A stretch of DNA of 14,483 nucleotides, taken from the NCBI GenBank assembly GCA_934663645.1, contig CAKUKR010000066.1, positions 1-14,483 on the forward strand, written 5' to 3'. The stretch is from an uncultured Muribaculaceae bacterium. Lineage in GTDB: Bacteria > Bacteroidota > Bacteroidia > Bacteroidales > Muribaculaceae. Numbering within the stretch: position 1 is the first letter of the stretch; every line of letters begins with the position of its first letter. Positions 2 through 14,483 of the stretch are shown one piece after another. The notes under the pieces were generated by a model. The model was not told where the DNA came from. It saw nothing but the letters and a program-made list of their open reading frames with translations, and searched no databases. The translations under genes and the position numbers were made by a program.

Positions 2-75
2 GCTTCAGTAGCTCAGTTGGTTAGAGCACCTGACTGTTAATCAGGGGGTCGTTGGTTCAAGCCCATCCTGAAGCG
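2..75 (+). tRNA. tRNA-Asn (anticodon GTT), copy 1
   Basis: This is a complete cloverleaf of 74 nt. The acceptor stem GCTTCAG (2-8) pairs with CTGAAGC (68-74), and the discriminator base is G75. The D arm contains AGCTCAGTTGGTTAGAGC. The anticodon stem CCTGA/TCAGG holds loop CTGTTAA with GTT at 36-38, and the T arm contains GGTTCAAGCCC. CCA is not encoded. It is identical to the second copy, and 20 nt separate the two genes, so they are probably one transcript. Confidence 0.97.
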
Positions 76-95
76 CAAACGAAAATACAACTATT

Positions 96-169
96 GCTTC
101 AGTAGCTCAGTTGGTTAGAGCACCTGACTGTTAATCAGGGGGTCGTTGGTTCAAGCCCATCCTGAAGCG
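96..169 (+). tRNA. tRNA-Asn (anticodon GTT), copy 2
   Basis: This is an exact duplicate of the first tRNA. The repeat covers positions 1-76 and 95-170, so it includes one flanking base on each side. The anticodon GTT lies at 130-132. A terminator-like hairpin follows directly. The pair looks like a tandem duplication that adds gene dosage. Confidence 0.97.
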
Positions 170-281: not shown

Positions 282-542
282 ATGGAAGTAACTGTTCCCA
301 AGAAAAAGGCAACCATGTTCCGTCTTAATGCAGATCTGCTCGACCGGCTCAAGGAGCTGGCTCGCCGTGAGCATCGCAGTTTGAACAACTATGTGGAGTG
401 TGTGCTGCTCGATGTAGTTTATAATGAGCCTAATGAAACGACCATTGCCGCCGTTAACGAGGCTCGCAGCGGTGCTTTGCGCAATACTACGCCTGTTGAC
501 ACTTCGAGTGTTGAGGCAATGCTCAACTCGCTGGGAGTATGA
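282..542 (+). CDS. Ribbon-helix-helix type II antitoxin (YafQ partner)
   Basis: This 86-residue protein is probably the antitoxin of the pair. Residues about 11-46 fit a ribbon-helix-helix DNA-binding fold: a short beta-strand-like stretch (ATMFRLN), then two helices holding LLDRLKELA and SLNNYVECVLL. The rest (about 47-86) is likely the flexible part that wraps the toxin. This is known of the class; I infer it here from order and length. The stop codon overlaps the toxin start (ATGA, 539-542), so the two are translationally coupled with the antitoxin first, the usual type II arrangement. Such antitoxins normally repress their own promoter, here at 231-262. I saw no clear palindromic operator there. 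The exact antitoxin family was not resolved. Confidence 0.8.
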   Translation: MEVTVPKKKATMFRLNADLLDRLKELARREHRSLNNYVECVLLDVVYNEPNETTIAAVNEARSGALRNTTPVDTSSVEAMLNSLGV

Positions 543-829
543 AGGCACTCCACCCGTCTTCGCAGTTCAAGAAAGATGTCAAGCGGATTAGGAACAACAA
601 CCCACTCAAGCTTGCAAGGCTTAGGGAAGTCCTAGACATGCTGGCATCTGAAATAGAGCTGCCTGAAAGGTACAAGGCTCATCGTCTTGTCGGAGACTAC
701 AAGGACTGCCTGGAGTGTCATATTGAGGGCGATTTCCTGCTGATATGGATTGACGAGACTGACCAGTCCATAAACCTGCTTCGTCTTGGCTCTCATCCTG
801 AACTGTTTGGCAAAGGCTCGAAGAAATGA
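539..829 (+). CDS. yafQ: YafQ-family mRNA endoribonuclease toxin (RelE/ParE superfamily)
   Basis: This 96-residue protein is a ribosome-dependent mRNA-cutting toxin by family. The C-terminal half carries the YafQ signature: YKAHRLVGDYKDCLECHIEGD at residues 45-65, then LLIW, and LLRLGSHPELF at 80-90. The expected active-site residues are present: H48, H61, D65 and H86, plus R82. The Trp that follows the Asp in Escherichia coli YafQ is Phe (F66) here. The length matches the family (about 92). It overlaps the antitoxin by 4 bp and is followed by a hairpin terminator at 859-880. The toxin looks intact and active. A ParE-like gyrase toxin is less likely because the HIEGD and GSHPELF motifs are specific to the YafQ branch. 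Confidence 0.9.
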   Translation: MKALHPSSQFKKDVKRIRNNNPLKLARLREVLDMLASEIELPERYKAHRLVGDYKDCLECHIEGDFLLIWIDETDQSINLLRLGSHPELFGKGSKK

Positions 830-11423: not shown

Positions 11424-12617
11424 TCAGCGGCAGACGAACTTGGCTGACCCTGCGGCCGTGTGCAGTATGTATGTGCCGTGGGGCAGCGCCGAGATGTCGA
11501 TGTCGTTGTCGCCCGGCTGGAGCTGCTCGAGCGCGGCAGCCGTGCCTGTGGCGGAGTATATGCGTGCCTGTGCGCTGACGGCCGAGCGCACGCGCAATGT
11601 CCCTCCGGCTGCTGACAGGATGACAGGCCGCGCGGTTGTCGCCGCGATGCCGTCCACGCCGCCGGTGGGCGTGTATTCGGCCTCTGGGTGCAAGTCCTCG
11701 CCGCCGCACACCTCTGTCGACGTCTCGCCTATCCAGCCGCAGTCCTGGTTGACCGCCGTGTAGACCTTGATGAAATGCACGCCCCCCAGGCGCACCGGGC
11801 GGCCCTGCGCGTCCACAGCCCATGAGATGTCAAATCCCAGCTCCTCGTCGTTGGAGATGTTGTCGGCATAGCCGTATCCGTAGCTGCGCTGAACGAACAG
11901 GTCGCTCCCGCCGCTGCCGATGTTGACATAGTTGTCGGGCAGGCACGCGCCCTCGTATTCGAGCGTCTCCTCGCCGTCGAGCCATGCCGGCCAGTACGGC
12001 TGCGCGTGAAACGTGTTGCGCCTCACATACCCCTCGGGCTTAGCCGGGTCGTTGGTCGTGTATCGTATGTATGTGCGGTCGGTGATGTATTTCTCGTCCG
12101 GGTCGGGGTCTGCGTCTGCCGGGCGGCCCGTGTCGGGACGGAAGTATGTGATGCGGTACGAGTGCTGCGTCGCCGGGTTGTTGTATTCGCTGCCTGCCAG
12201 CTCGTACCATGGGTCGTCGGGCAGCCCGTTGCCGTTGGTGTCCTCGCTTACCATTATGATGCCTGGCTCGGAGCTGCCGGTACGCGAGCTGCTGTCGCGA
12301 GAGAAGGCGTTGCCGTAGATGACGAAGTCGCGCTGCCCCTCGACGTTTGCCACCGGGTGGTCGAAGCCGACGATGATGTATCCGCCGTATGCCCCCAGCG
12401 TCACTGTGCCGGGGGTCTTGTCGCCGCAGAGCAGCTCCTCGGCCTTGGCGAGCATTTCGGCCTCGGTGTCGCCAGGCTCGTGTTCAGGCAGGTCGTTGAC
12501 AAACTGCCCCGGGGCAGGGCGGTAAGAGTATACGCGGTGCAGCCACGGCGAGGCTGCCGTGGCGGCCGCAGCCGCTGCCAGACAGAGCGGTGCGCAGAGT
12601 ATGTGCCGGTAGTCCAT
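11424..12617 (-). CDS. Secreted protein with type IX sorting domain, under a cobalamin riboswitch
   Basis: This 397-residue protein has a signal peptide (1-23, alanine-rich, cleavage near TAAS) with no lipobox. The middle (about 30-320) has PAPGQFVNDLPEHEPGD (34-50), LGAYGGYIIVGFDHPV (74-89), a calcium-loop-like DTNGNGLPDD (126-135) and WYELAGSEYN (137-146). I recall similar sequences in Bacteroidota annotated only as cell-surface protein. Residues about 331-397 look like a type A C-terminal sorting domain of the type IX system: ARIYSATG, then GDNDIDISALPHGTYILH. The upstream riboswitch suggests a role in vitamin B12 capture at the surface. I saw no beta-propeller repeats, so it is not obviously BtuG; kinship with BtuH is possible but untested. 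Confidence 0.8.
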   Translation of the reverse strand: MDYRHILCAPLCLAAAAAATAASPWLHRVYSYRPAPGQFVNDLPEHEPGDTEAEMLAKAEELLCGDKTPGTVTLGAYGGYIIVGFDHPVANVEGQRDFVIYGNAFSRDSSSRTGSSEPGIIMVSEDTNGNGLPDDPWYELAGSEYNNPATQHSYRITYFRPDTGRPADADPDPDEKYITDRTYIRYTTNDPAKPEGYVRRNTFHAQPYWPAWLDGEETLEYEGACLPDNYVNIGSGGSDLFVQRSYGYGYADNISNDEELGFDISWAVDAQGRPVRLGGVHFIKVYTAVNQDCGWIGETSTEVCGGEDLHPEAEYTPTGGVDGIAATTARPVILSAAGGTLRVRSAVSAQARIYSATGTAAALEQLQPGDNDIDISALPHGTYILHTAAGSAKFVCR

Positions 12618-12971: not shown

Positions 12972-13142
12972 TTGCCGGTCCGGTCTTCTGACTCGTCCCC
13001 CCGGTCATGCACGCCTTCCCGGCATCGGCTGCCAGTGGCGTTATGTGCATCAGGTGTAAGGGACATCACAGCAGCGGGTCTGTCGGGGATTCTCACCCCT
13101 GTTCCCGGATGAGGGGGTCGCTGATACGCAATGTGTCGGCAA
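12972..13142 (-). ncRNA. Cobalamin (vitamin B12) riboswitch
   Basis: Read on the minus strand, the aptamer has P1 TTGCCG (13142-13137) pairing with CGGCAA (12977-12972). Next comes the core GGGAACAGGGGTGAGAATCC (13106-13087), then CCCGCTGCTGTGA (13079-13067), GCCACTGGC (13039-13031), CCGGGAAGGC (13022-13013), and the B12 box AGTCAGAAGACC (12993-12982). These are the family's conserved elements in the normal order and distance. Binding of adenosyl- or other cobalamin normally turns expression off. The gene it precedes on the strand is the T9SS-type secreted protein at 12617. The 354 nt to its start is unusually long. Confidence 0.93.
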
Positions 13143-13346: not shown

Positions 13347-13778
13347 ATGGCAAAGATAGACACAGTCAACAAGTACATAGGCGAGTACCTGGCGGGCAAG
13401 TCGCCCGAGGCAGCGGAGCGTTTCCGCGCCAAGGATGTGAGCCGCCAGTACCAATCGATAATGACATGGCGTTACAACCAGCGCAAGCGAGCCGCCGCGT
13501 CGGCGGCAGTTCCGGCTGCCGAGGAAGAGCCGAAAAGCCCTGCGGAGATGCTGCGTGCCGTGCGCCGCGACATGGAACGCCGCCGCGACCTGACGGAGGA
13601 GATGCTCGACGAGCTGACGGCGGAGCTGGACGGCTTCGCGGAGTTTGTCCGCCAGACACGCCACCGCATGCGCCTCGCCGAGATAGAGACGCTCGAGACG
13701 CGCCGCGAGGAGATAGCAGAGCGGCTCAAGACGCTGCGCCGTCAGGTGGACGAGGTGCAAGCGCCGACGCTCTTCTGA
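13347..13778 (+). CDS. Small basic/coiled-coil protein of unknown function
   Basis: I do not recognise this 143-residue protein. An N-terminal part (1-50) is helical and basic at its end (VSRQYQSIMTWRYNQRKR, 31-48), as in a small DNA-binding domain. An alanine/proline/glutamate linker follows (51-65). The rest (66-139) is a long highly charged helix with heptad-like leucines, likely coiled coil (MLDELTAELDGF, ETRREEIAERLKTLRRQV). There is no signal peptide or membrane helix, so it is cytoplasmic. I chose ATG 13347; the open frame runs back to 13131, but that part lies in the riboswitch leader. A weak box TAAATTCG (13312-13319) precedes it. It ends 21 bp before the repeat mosaic. Confidence 0.72.
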   Translation: MAKIDTVNKYIGEYLAGKSPEAAERFRAKDVSRQYQSIMTWRYNQRKRAAASAAVPAAEEEPKSPAEMLRAVRRDMERRRDLTEEMLDELTAELDGFAEFVRQTRHRMRLAEIETLETRREEIAERLKTLRRQVDEVQAPTLF

Positions 13779-13798: not shown

Positions 13799-13889
13799 CG
13801 TTAACCGCGTGTTAACCTGTTAACCTGTTAACCGCCCCCAAGGGCAGGTTAACAGGGTTAACACGGTTAACACGGTTAACAGGTTAACG
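13799..13889. repeat. GTTAAC array 1: inverted clusters around a GCCC/GGGC centre
   Basis: GTTAAC occurs at 13800, 13811, 13819, 13827, 13848, 13857, 13866, 13875 and 13883. By their flanks the first four read C/T-GTTAACC and the last five read GGTTAAC-A/G, so the two arms are inverted about GCCCCCAAGGGC (13834-13845). The right arm has a 9-bp period (13848-13875), the left an 8-bp period. The whole can fold as a large imperfect palindrome. Confidence 0.95.
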
Positions 13890-13910
13890 CCATCCTCATT
13901 CCCTGATACT

Positions 13911-13956
13911 TGTTTACCGTCCCTGCCGTGGTAAACAGAGTAAACTAAGGTAAACA
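13911..13956. repeat. GTAAAC array: TGTTTACC, centre, then three GTAAAC copies
   Basis: TGTTTACC (13911-13918) is inverted to GGTAAACA (13930-13937) across an 11-bp centre. Two more GTAAAC copies follow at 13940 and 13950 (9 and 10 bp steps). The design matches the GTTAAC arrays with a different inner base. Confidence 0.9.
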
Positions 13957-13984
13957 CGCTTGCCGTTTCACCGACGGCAAGTGT
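13956..13984. repeat. Inverted repeat CTTGCCGT/ACGGCAAG
   Basis: CTTGCCGT (13959-13966) pairs perfectly with ACGGCAAG (13974-13981) around 7 nt, and three more outer pairs (one G-U) extend it. No T tract follows on either strand, so it is not an intrinsic terminator. A second small stem, TCTCGG (13991-13996) with CCGAGA (14003-14008), follows at once. Confidence 0.8.
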
Positions 13985-14020
13985 CGGAGGTCTCGGAGTT
14001 CCCCGAGAGCGGAAATCATT

Positions 14021-14053
14021 CTCGTCGGGAGTGGATTGCTCTCGTCGGGAGTG
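14021..14053 (+). repeat. Direct repeat CTCGTCGGGAGTG, two copies
   Basis: Identical 13-mers lie at 14021-14033 and 14041-14053 with a 20-bp step, about two helical turns, so both copies face the same side of the DNA. Confidence 0.85.
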
Positions 14054-14077
14054 CTGTCTCCTCTTCCTCCGACAGAT

Positions 14078-14097
14078 ATACTATATGTGTATAGTAT
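14078..14097. repeat. Perfect palindrome ATACTATA-TGTG-TATAGTAT
   Basis: Two 8-bp arms (14078-14085 and 14090-14097) surround a 4-nt loop. It is AT-only apart from one C/G pair per arm, in an otherwise GC-rich area. It could be an operator or a DNA-unwinding/cruciform site. Confidence 0.85.
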
Positions 14098-14153
14098 GTA
14101 TACGCCGCCCCCTGCCACAGCTGCTTACGCGCTGCCATAGCATAACGACGGTG

Positions 14154-14161
14154 CAAAGTTA
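14154..14161 (-). promoter_or_regulatory. Lone TAACTTTG box on the minus strand
   Basis: The box equals the -7 box before yicC, but the -33 region (near 14182) is poor. It would drive a transcript leftward through the palindrome and the GTAAAC array, where no good gene exists. A small untranslated RNA is possible. Confidence 0.3.
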
Positions 14162-14230
14162 CAACCTTCCTGCGACACGAAATCTGCTGTTTAACATTTG
14201 CGGCAGGAGGGCGCACTCTCCGATGAATAT

Positions 14231-14274
14231 GTCCGGCGTGTTCGGCGTTCCCAGCCCCCGAACAGGCCGAACAG
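14231..14274. repeat. TGTTCGG / CCGAACAG array
   Basis: GTCCGGCGT (14231-14239) and GTTCGGCGT (14240-14248) form a 9-bp direct repeat. The inverted right arm is CCGAACAGG CCGAACAGT (GAACAG at 14260 and 14269, 9-bp step). GTTCGGC (14240-14246) pairs with GCCGAAC (14266-14272). Confidence 0.88.
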
Positions 14275-14293
14275 TCTACTTACTACAGGAATG

Positions 14294-14392
14294 TGTTTCA
14301 TCTGTTTCACCGTTGCAGGGGTGCAACAGATGCAACACTTGCAACAGATGCAACAGGTGCAACACTTGCAACACTTGCAACAGATGCAACAG
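14294..14392. repeat. TGTTTCA / TGCAACA array with eight 9-bp units
   Basis: TGTTTCA lies at 14294 and 14303 (9-bp step), then CGTTGCA (14311-14317). After GGG come eight tandem 9-mers from 14321 to 14392 of the form NTGCAACA[G/C]. GTTGCA and TGCAAC are inverted to each other. Confidence 0.95.
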
Positions 14393-14411
14393 TAACAGGG
14401 AATAATGGGGC

Positions 14412-14483
14412 TGTTAACCTTGTTAACCTGCCACAGGGGGGTTAACACGGTTAACAGGTTAACGCGAGGTTAACAGGTTAACG
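14412..14483. repeat. GTTAAC array 2 (runs to the window end)
   Basis: GTTAAC occurs at 14413, 14422, 14441, 14450, 14458, 14469 and 14477. The first two read TGTTAACC; the last five read GGTTAAC-A/G. The centre is TGCCACAGGGG. It is the same design as array 1, about 610 bp away, and may go on past the window. Confidence 0.93.

Follow-up and report, generated by a model that had tools for sequence, protein, structure and literature searches.

Inverted arrays of short tandem units in the intergenic DNA of a Muribaculaceae bacterium and some of its relatives

The last 685 bases (positions 13799–14483) of a 14,483-bp stretch of an uncultured Muribaculaceae bacterium (contig CAKUKR010000066.1; the whole stretch is called the window in the following) hold no supported genes and carry five inverted arrays. 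In each, a short motif—here TGTT—is repeated mostly in 9-bp steps and is followed by a short centre and by its complement AACA, with looser letters between the copies. This layout recurs in some related genomes, lies mostly between genes and often near stop codons, uses a unit that is specific to the genome, and is exchanged for another array at the same gap between close species. Such clusters are probably non-coding, dispersed intergenic modules that are born by slippage and fold-back copying and are replaced in place.

Inverted Arrays at the End of the Window

A direct count of this tail gives 21 copies of AACA and 10 of TGTT. A spacing of 9 bp separates twelve pairs of AACA and two of TGTT, and two further TGTT pairs—in the left arm of array A—are spaced by 8 bp. 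In total, 14 pairs of identical tetramers thus show the nine-step spacing; dinucleotide shuffles of these 685 bases yield 0.047 on average and never more than 2 among 2000, and the preceding 13798 bases of the window hold no nine-step AACA pair. A preliminary description of this DNA had claimed clusters with TGTT on the left and AACA on the right that step mostly by 9 bp; the counts bear this out, and shuffling does not reproduce such a density.

The tail comprises the arrays A, B, D, E, and F and one lone palindrome-like site, which may be a chance occurrence (Table 1). Array A starts ~22 bp past the stop codon of a 143-aa open reading frame (ORF), has a C-rich/G-rich centre (GCCCCCAAGGGC), and continues into a right arm of GGTTAACA copies in steps of 9. 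The right arm of array E follows strict 9-bp steps (a tandem repeat of period 9 with 7.9 copies), and beyond the TGTT/AACA tetramer its two arms have just GTTGCA/TGCAAC in common. Array F is cut off by the end of the window. The best self-match lies at lag 9 in all five arrays, with a near-tie at lag 8 in A and F. Automatic clustering places every TGTT before every AACA in three of four clusters; the fourth—D, E, and F merged—is ordered only once it is split by eye at the array borders.

All inner sequences named in the preliminary description are present (TTAACA, TAAACA, CGAACA, GCAACA, and, as TGTTTC, GAAACA), and its right-arm counts of 5, 3, 2, 8, and 5 hold if the terminal GTTAACG and GTAAACT copies are included. 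Its division into five separate families needs to be revised: there are five inner types, but GAAACA belongs to the GCAACA array, whose left arm it forms, and lacks a separate right arm, and arrays A and F have one unit (GTTAAC) in common. Plain slippage of one motif, already doubted there, does not describe these arrays, because both arms retain the complementary tetramer and the remaining letters vary.

Folded as RNA, array A reaches a predicted −51.2 kcal/mol (z −7.8), with none of 200 shuffles equally stable. Arrays F (z −5.84) and D (z −4.05) fold strongly as well and array E modestly (z −2.65); the fold of array B is not significant (z −1.65), as 16 of 200 shuffles fold equally well. Rfam 15 gives zero matches for the window tail. 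A segment between the arrays holds CTCGTCGGGAGTG twice together with TCGGAGG palindromes; the arrays of a related genome, G034, likewise lie near TCGGAGG palindromes.

Recurrence in Related Genomes

The nearest genome match of a window protein is 80% identical and belongs to L001 (Porphyromonadaceae bacterium UBA7180). The same protein is 52–53% identical in Duncaniella and Muribaculaceae contigs, with Porphyromonadaceae, Bacteroides, and Barnesiella titles between. The group of L001, probably the Muribaculaceae, was taken as the nearest family, and 397 of its genomes were searched; L001 itself shows zero match to the window tail. For the inverted and the reversed pattern below, the genomes were counted by hand, and overlapping matches count several times per array.

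A four-copy AACA-N5 pattern matches 73 of the 397 genomes, largely in simple repeats with an equally high control. The TGNAACANNTGNAACA pattern was searched in eight genomes and gives 45 matches versus 1 in the control for G225, 23 versus 0 for G342, 12 versus 0 for G083, and 14 versus 6 for G366, the other four (G001, G007, G206, and G356) showing 0–1. Many of the G225 and G083 arrays are inverted like those of the window, with TGTTTCA or TGTTCCA on the left and TGAAACA or TGGAACA on the right. The complete inverted pattern, TGTT-N5-TGTT-N(5-35)-AACA-N5-AACA, is found in 44 genomes of the family, in 28 of them once, and reaches at least five matches in seven (G034, G050, G058, G083, G156, G194, and G225), the matches of G050 being simple TGTTG repeats and those of G156 of mixed nature. 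G034 carries the GTTAAC unit of the window itself as TGTTAACCTTGTTAA-GGGG-TTAACAAGGTTAACA.

The reversed control (ACAA..TTGT) gives at least five matches in 48 of the 397 genomes, with up to 74 overlapping matches. Among the matches listed for G284, G354, G022, G054, G219, and G168, five of these six genomes contain real inverted 9-bp arrays of the reversed pattern (e.g., ACAATAAATACAATAAGCACAAT ... ATTGTACTTATTGT). Hence the layout is general, with TGTT/AACA as one of its spellings; a reversed-pattern control may, as a caution, conceal real signal. The kept letters are GAAAC in G225 and G194, GGAAC in G083, GATAAC in G058, and ACAA/TTGT in G284, in whose genus the 7-bp AGTTAGG/ACTAGAA is found among others. 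The notion that TGTT/AACA is a privileged frame, or that one AACA-reading protein recognizes it, is not supported in view of this variation between genomes and sites. A search of relatives, proposed with the preliminary description, thus finds the layout again in some genomes, but often with other letters; private repeats that lack the TGTT/AACA frame, named there as a sign against a common element, are partly seen, and the layout is what they share. In a phylum sample of 296 genomes, 41 match, with a maximum of 5 in one genome (control maximum 3) and no burst, and the matches listed resemble background.

Longer repeats accompany some of these arrays. A promoter-like leader is present at most of the G342 loci L120–L124, L281, and L282, and most of the G366 loci L128, L129, and L290–L299 show a TGGACCAAAAA...TTTTTGGTCCA hairpin flank. 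No transposase was found for the longer G342 and G366 repeats, PF01797 being the one family searched. Contigs of relatives (e.g., G342 and G366) stop at or near arrays in several cases, which would fit a multi-copy sequence. G225 contains a separate dispersed repeat of ~110–180 bp, mostly 93–100% identical, and array-bearing segments that occur twice, flanking a PD-(D/E)XK gene in one case and a zeta-toxin-like gene in the other (Table 1). On a Duncaniella contig (L010, 10649–10764), about thirteen copies of the 9-bp TATAAGTCC adjoin an HD-domain gene.

Arrays at Two Gaps Traced across Species

Two gaps of G284 were traced through its genus, loci being returned from 30 of the 41 genomes searched each time. 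Gap 1 runs from a radical-SAM gene to a glycosyltransferase gene and gap 2 from Peripla_BP_2 to FecCD (Pfam names). All 18 close species, whose downstream protein is 83–100% identical, have 59–214 bp at gap 1; among distant species, eight of the 11 measured have at most 21 bp, and one more (L422) lacks the adjacent pair. Gap 2 measures 48–146 bp in all 16 readable close species and 0 bp in three outgroup species. Seven gap 2 loci yielded no adjacent pair—L440, the seventeenth close species, and L444, L445, L448, L449, L450, and L452. The gaps of L446, L447, and L451 (14–33 bp) look like those of paralogues and are uncounted, and the L443 entry (gap 0) is partial and sits on a long branch.

The inserts are periodic and diverse in sequence. 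The best lag is 7, 9, or 14 for 18 of 18 inserts at gap 1 and for 14 of 16 at gap 2, with few ties; the exceptions at gap 2 are one insert of lag 12 with 9 in second place and L436 (48 bp), which is not significantly periodic. Units range from the 7-bp AGTTAGG ... ACTAGAA to the 9-bp ACAATAAAT, TCTAGANNN, and AATTCGNNN. For the sisters L425 and L426, the 150-nt flanks of gap 2 are 98% and 95% identical and the gap itself 19%; at gap 1 (L396/L400), the same two genomes bear a near-identical array (95%). Flank identity drops to 0.34 upstream for two of 13 pairs (L423/L429 and L431/L432), which in this gapless comparison is probably due to an indel.

When array type at one gap is mapped onto the downstream-gene tree of 16 species, 7 changes are required. 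Shuffled labels need a mean of 6.3, so the observed number is no fewer and the array types do not group by branch. If just the well-supported branches are considered, the minimum is 2, 3, and 2 changes for the three array types, which were labelled by eye with the non-periodic L436 given the CTAG type.

Arm Pairing and Position Relative to Genes

The G284 loci gave 23 hairpins, and for 14 arrays with a GAARACAA...TTGTYTTC frame (including two identical copies) the arms were compared across arrays. Arms of the same array match at 23.14 of 27 versus a permuted mean of 21.91 (sd 0.35), the maximum of 5000 permutations being 23.14. Own arms match better than swapped arms, and therefore the arms of one array belong together. 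From the two traced gaps, 34 arrays were analysed for folding and mismatches; the distant-species gaps L414, L415, and L419—the last with a lag-8 periodicity of its own—are excluded from this mismatch count. Twenty-two of the 34 fold better than at least 95% of their shuffles, and the mismatches of all 34 comprise 151 purine-purine and 67 pyrimidine-pyrimidine cases. Selection on an RNA helix was considered and is not supported, there being no G·U excess among the arm mismatches of 58 hairpins or of the 34 gaps. The earlier suggestion of a fold with co-varying arms therefore stands with respect to the matching arms of G284 but not with respect to G·U pairs. Rfam 15 gives no match in the arrays of 10 loci.

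With simple ORF calling, 10 of the 23 G284 hairpins lie at most 25 bp from a stop codon; there is no avoidance of divergent gaps, which hold six of the 23. Five fill gaps of 105–113 bp between tandem genes, the hydF gap included, and one occupies precisely the space that separates the stop codons of two convergent aminotransferase genes. An array can also lie within a gene: mnmE of G225 contains an in-frame 9-bp array encoding SPV/DTT/NTV repeats in a loop after NKSD, and the same loop bears other, unrelated repeats in some related species.

Periodicity also appears in gaps that had not been picked for arrays. Among such gaps in G284, nine of 46 have strong periodicity, with no lag other than 7 or 9; in G225 it is 12 of 51 (lags 7, 9, and 14, and one at 10), two of which (L118 and L288) are arrays missed by the exclusion pattern, and in G342 three of 20 (lags 7, 14, and 16). 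Gaps of viral contigs are periodic in nine of 240 cases, with mixed lags (6, 9, 11, 12, and 15).

Other Features of the Window

The 143-aa ORF upstream of array A gives eight matches at E ≤ 0.001 when compared with the protein collection. A genome-by-genome search of the nearest family matches the gene in 39 of 397 genomes; the array carriers G034, G058, G083, G194, and G342 lie outside those 39, and incomplete genomes could hide it. Further upstream, a cobalamin riboswitch lies on the strand of a 397-aa gene. Two adjacent tRNA genes have equal Rfam scores. They are followed by two overlapping small ORFs, likely a toxin-antitoxin pair, the first with a weak ribbon-helix-helix match slightly below the cut-off. 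No replication initiator gene is seen in the window, of which not every ORF was scanned and whose sequence ends at 14483.

Table 1. Coordinates of the arrays and of further features in the window and in genome G225
Feature	Location	Strand	Content
Array A	13801..13888	.	left TGTTAACC x3 (step 8) + one GTTAACC
Array B	13910..13956	.	left TGTTTACC; right GGTAAACA / GTAAACT / GGTAAACA
Segment between arrays	13972-14047		CTCGTCGGGAGTG; TCGGAGG palindromes
Lone palindrome-like TGTTTAACA	14188..14196	.	single TGTT beside single AACA
Array D	14230..14273	.	left GTCCGGCGTGTTCGGCGTTC; right GAACAGGCCGAACA
Array E	14294..14391	.	left TGTTTCA x2 + GTTGCA; GGGG centre; right TGCAACA x8
Array F	14412..14483	.	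left TGTTAACC x2 (step 9); centre; right GGTTAACA copies
143-aa ORF	13347..13778	+	protein of unknown function, no Pfam match
Cobalamin riboswitch	12981-13107	-	Rfam RF00174, 75.8 bits
397-aa gene	11424-12617		no Pfam match
Two tRNA genes	2-169	+	
Two overlapping small ORFs	282-829	+	second: YafQ toxin (PF15738, E 1.1e-27)
G225 mnmE	L117 6721-8250	-	in-frame 9-bp array
G225 dispersed repeat	L110 1657, 9541, 13381, 18733; L112 15685; L113 4080; L116 5533, 11371		~110-180 bp
G225 duplicated segments	L112 8092-8278, 9766-9952; L113 8666-9106, 10031-10442		array-bearing

Possible Origin of the Arrays

The arrays probably represent non-coding modules that are dispersed over intergenic DNA and rewritten where they stand. 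Replication slippage by 7 or 9 bp at a time might create and lengthen them, and fold-back (template-switch) copying would add the mirrored arm and keep the two arms complementary. Gene conversion or recombination between arrays might then spread or replace them. In the short gaps behind stop codons such arrays would be tolerated, possibly even kept, either as harmless stem-loops or by marking or protecting mRNA 3'-ends. The latter role has been proposed for repetitive extragenic palindromic (REP) sequences and bacterial interspersed mosaic elements (BIME).

Several observations weigh against this origin. Around the window's nearest named relatives (L001–L012), three of 55 gaps are periodic, at lags 9 and 11. 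At 84 family loci picked by gene, non-ORF tandem matches have lag 10 in 17 cases, lag 11 in 12, and lag 9 in five; lags 10 and 11 being commoner than 9, the preference for 7 and 9 is therefore not a family-wide rule. The arrays of G342 and G366 sit inside the longer dispersed repeats mentioned above and are mostly one-sided, hence not every array is inverted. The 700 bp downstream of the relatives of the 143-aa gene (28 loci, of 30, could be oriented) contain one nine-step pair overall (L036) and no clear array, so the window arrays do not travel with this gene. Twelve of the 34 gap arrays fold no better than 95% of shuffles. Arm mismatches divide evenly into 88 G·U and 88 A·C in the 58 hairpins, with no array-wise skew (P 0.79), and on the transcribed strand of the 34 gap arrays G·U (52) versus A·C (81) deviates in the wrong direction (P 0.015). 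No mobilizer or copying enzyme was found.

A possible but less likely competitor is a functional stem-loop at mRNA 3'-ends or between cistrons—a terminator, an RNase stop, or a means of differential stability, as exemplified by the REP sequence of malE-malF. Selection would then act on the presence of a hairpin behind the stop codon and leave its sequence free. This agrees with the occupation of both traced gaps in all readable close species by differing sequences, with the position of arrays after stop codons, including the one between the Peripla_BP_2 gene and its FecCD permease gene, and with the significant folds of 22 of the 34 gap arrays and the strong folds of window arrays A, D, and F. 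Against it stand the transcribed-strand counts just given, the dominance of purine-purine mismatches, the lack of a per-array strand bias, and the 12 gap arrays that do not fold significantly. The window arrays also have no obvious T-tract by eye, and neither they nor the arrays of the 10 loci match Rfam. A role at mRNA ends is kept as a rival rather than as the preferred explanation because the mismatches show no G·U excess.

It is unlikely, yet worth stating, that a dedicated cellular process writes the inverted arrays into the gaps between cistrons. Such a process would account for the complementary tetramer, the 7- or 9-bp steps, the free inner letters, and the rewriting of gaps between near-unchanged codons; the layout would be what is kept, and TGTT/AACA one alphabet among several interchangeable ones.

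The dyad layout and fixed steps could also mark binding sites of a DNA-binding protein that reads the tetramer—replicon iterons, sites of a nucleoid protein, or possibly of the 143-aa protein. Phage P4 has GGTGAACAG-like iterons. Arrays lie near AAA_25 and DUF6371 genes at L111 and L127, and the IMG/VR contig L280 (~12050–12280) carries TGTTAACCC three times with an inverted partner ~110 bp away. We regard binding sites as improbable: the kept letters are not the same from one genome to the next, nor even for sister species at one gap, the steps are 7 or 9, arrays also occur in housekeeping operons and inside mnmE, and the 143-aa gene is not matched in the five carriers outside the 39 genomes that have it. 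A phage origin or iterons were tried and rejected, too: IMG/VR returns at least 120 loci with the four-copy pattern, and among the matches listed, 110 lie under an open frame of at least 150 aa and 10 do not. Two of those ten, L198 and L266, show an inverted copy adjoining the array.

These 110 viral matches, the in-frame mnmE array of G225, and the many family AACA-N5 matches that resemble coding low complexity, with an equal control, would suit coding repeats or chance low complexity. As an account of the arrays this is very improbable, given that the window tail has no supported gene, a density far above shuffles, and inverted arms, that the G225 units contain TGA stops in one frame, and that several G284 arrays lie between well-defined genes.

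Least of all do we expect REP-like elements moved by a REP-associated tyrosine transposase (RAYT; a Y1 transposase), weakly rejected in that no array-flanked RAYT and no tag enrichment is seen: the arrays are dispersed, palindromic, and intergenic, and RAYT-like genes exist in some of these genomes, but G342 with its 23 array matches has no PF01797 match, 14 PF01797 loci (6 of 8 genomes, ~1.5 kb each side) show isolated nine-step pairs only (L301, L303, and L311), and GTAG/CGTC tags—no more than 8 bp outside or 4 bp inside an outer end—accompany 10 of 62 hairpins versus a mean of 13.1 (sd 3.5) at random places.

Comparison with Known Repeats

Short tandemly repeated repetitive (STRR) sequences of cyanobacteria are heptamers. 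Degenerate heptad repeats with partly fixed letters also make up the two sides of a hairpin in the Nostoc tRNA-Leu intron; that is one intron site with 7-bp units, whereas the arrays described here occupy many gaps. Rickettsia palindromic elements are one longer sequence family that is found in frame inside conserved genes, like the array in G225 mnmE, which in contrast is built of 9-bp units. For TAACTGA repeats, the consulted part of MacGregor 2015 (PMC4679880) reports occurrence in Beggiatoaceae, cyanobacteria, and five Bacteroidetes, with 169 direct sets and one indirect repeat of a fixed heptamer in the main genome; polymerase slippage is named in its introduction, by citation, as a proposed origin of 7-nt repeats. 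As far as that source goes, the likeness comprises many intergenic places, a copy number varying by whole units, gaps devoid of arrays in some close relatives, no known mobilizer, and, next to the slippage cited for heptamers, the 7-bp arrays of the relatives here. Dispersed short-unit arrays at many intergenic places, by which STRR are recognized, are found in G225, G342, G083, G366, and G284. Unlike STRR and TAACTGA repeats as described there, the present arrays are often inverted, step by 7 or 9 bp, and use genome-specific units that are swapped at one site; the window itself has no fixed direct heptamer, with its steps of 8–9, inverted arms, and several inner types.

REP/BIME are described, in the part of PMC3733652 consulted, as GTAG- and CGTC-tagged palindromes that are intergenic, some lying inside genes, the CGTC elements having no dedicated transposase. 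On this description they share with our arrays a palindromic, dispersed occurrence in intergenic DNA and partly in genes, and, in the case of the CGTC elements, the lack of a dedicated transposase; the arrays differ by showing neither tag enrichment nor a RAYT link, by their 7/9-bp units, and by fast sequence change. Palindromic candidate RNAs of the human microbiome, in the excerpt consulted of PMC8040213, measure ~80–130 bp, several are mostly from Bacteroidetes, 230 of 250 are predicted terminators, and one 108-bp candidate, which is expressed, often occurs near radical-SAM genes. By description, which is the one basis of this comparison, they are similar in being palindromic and in their size of ~80–130 bp, and differ in being defined by a sequence model.

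Clustered regularly interspaced short palindromic repeats (CRISPR) likewise place repeats in a gene-free stretch; they are rejected, in line with the preliminary description, as the units here have 8–9 bp instead of ~25–40 bp, the arms are inverted, spacers are lacking, and no cas genes were noted among the window ORFs. The arrays are filed neither under STRR nor under REP because one defining feature of each was looked for and is lacking. A literature search, beyond whose reach most subscription journals lay, met no description of nonamer inverted arrays in Bacteroidales. We read the arrays as resembling STRR and REP/BIME, and their inverted 7/9-bp layout with swappable units as a novel version.

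Implications

Intergenic repeats of bacteria are usually defined by their sequence. In the present case, it is the layout and the position that seem to outlast the sequence. Whether such arrays are selfish elements, debris of slippage, or interchangeable modules at mRNA ends becomes directly testable, and sister species with swapped arrays at one gap provide natural test pairs for this.

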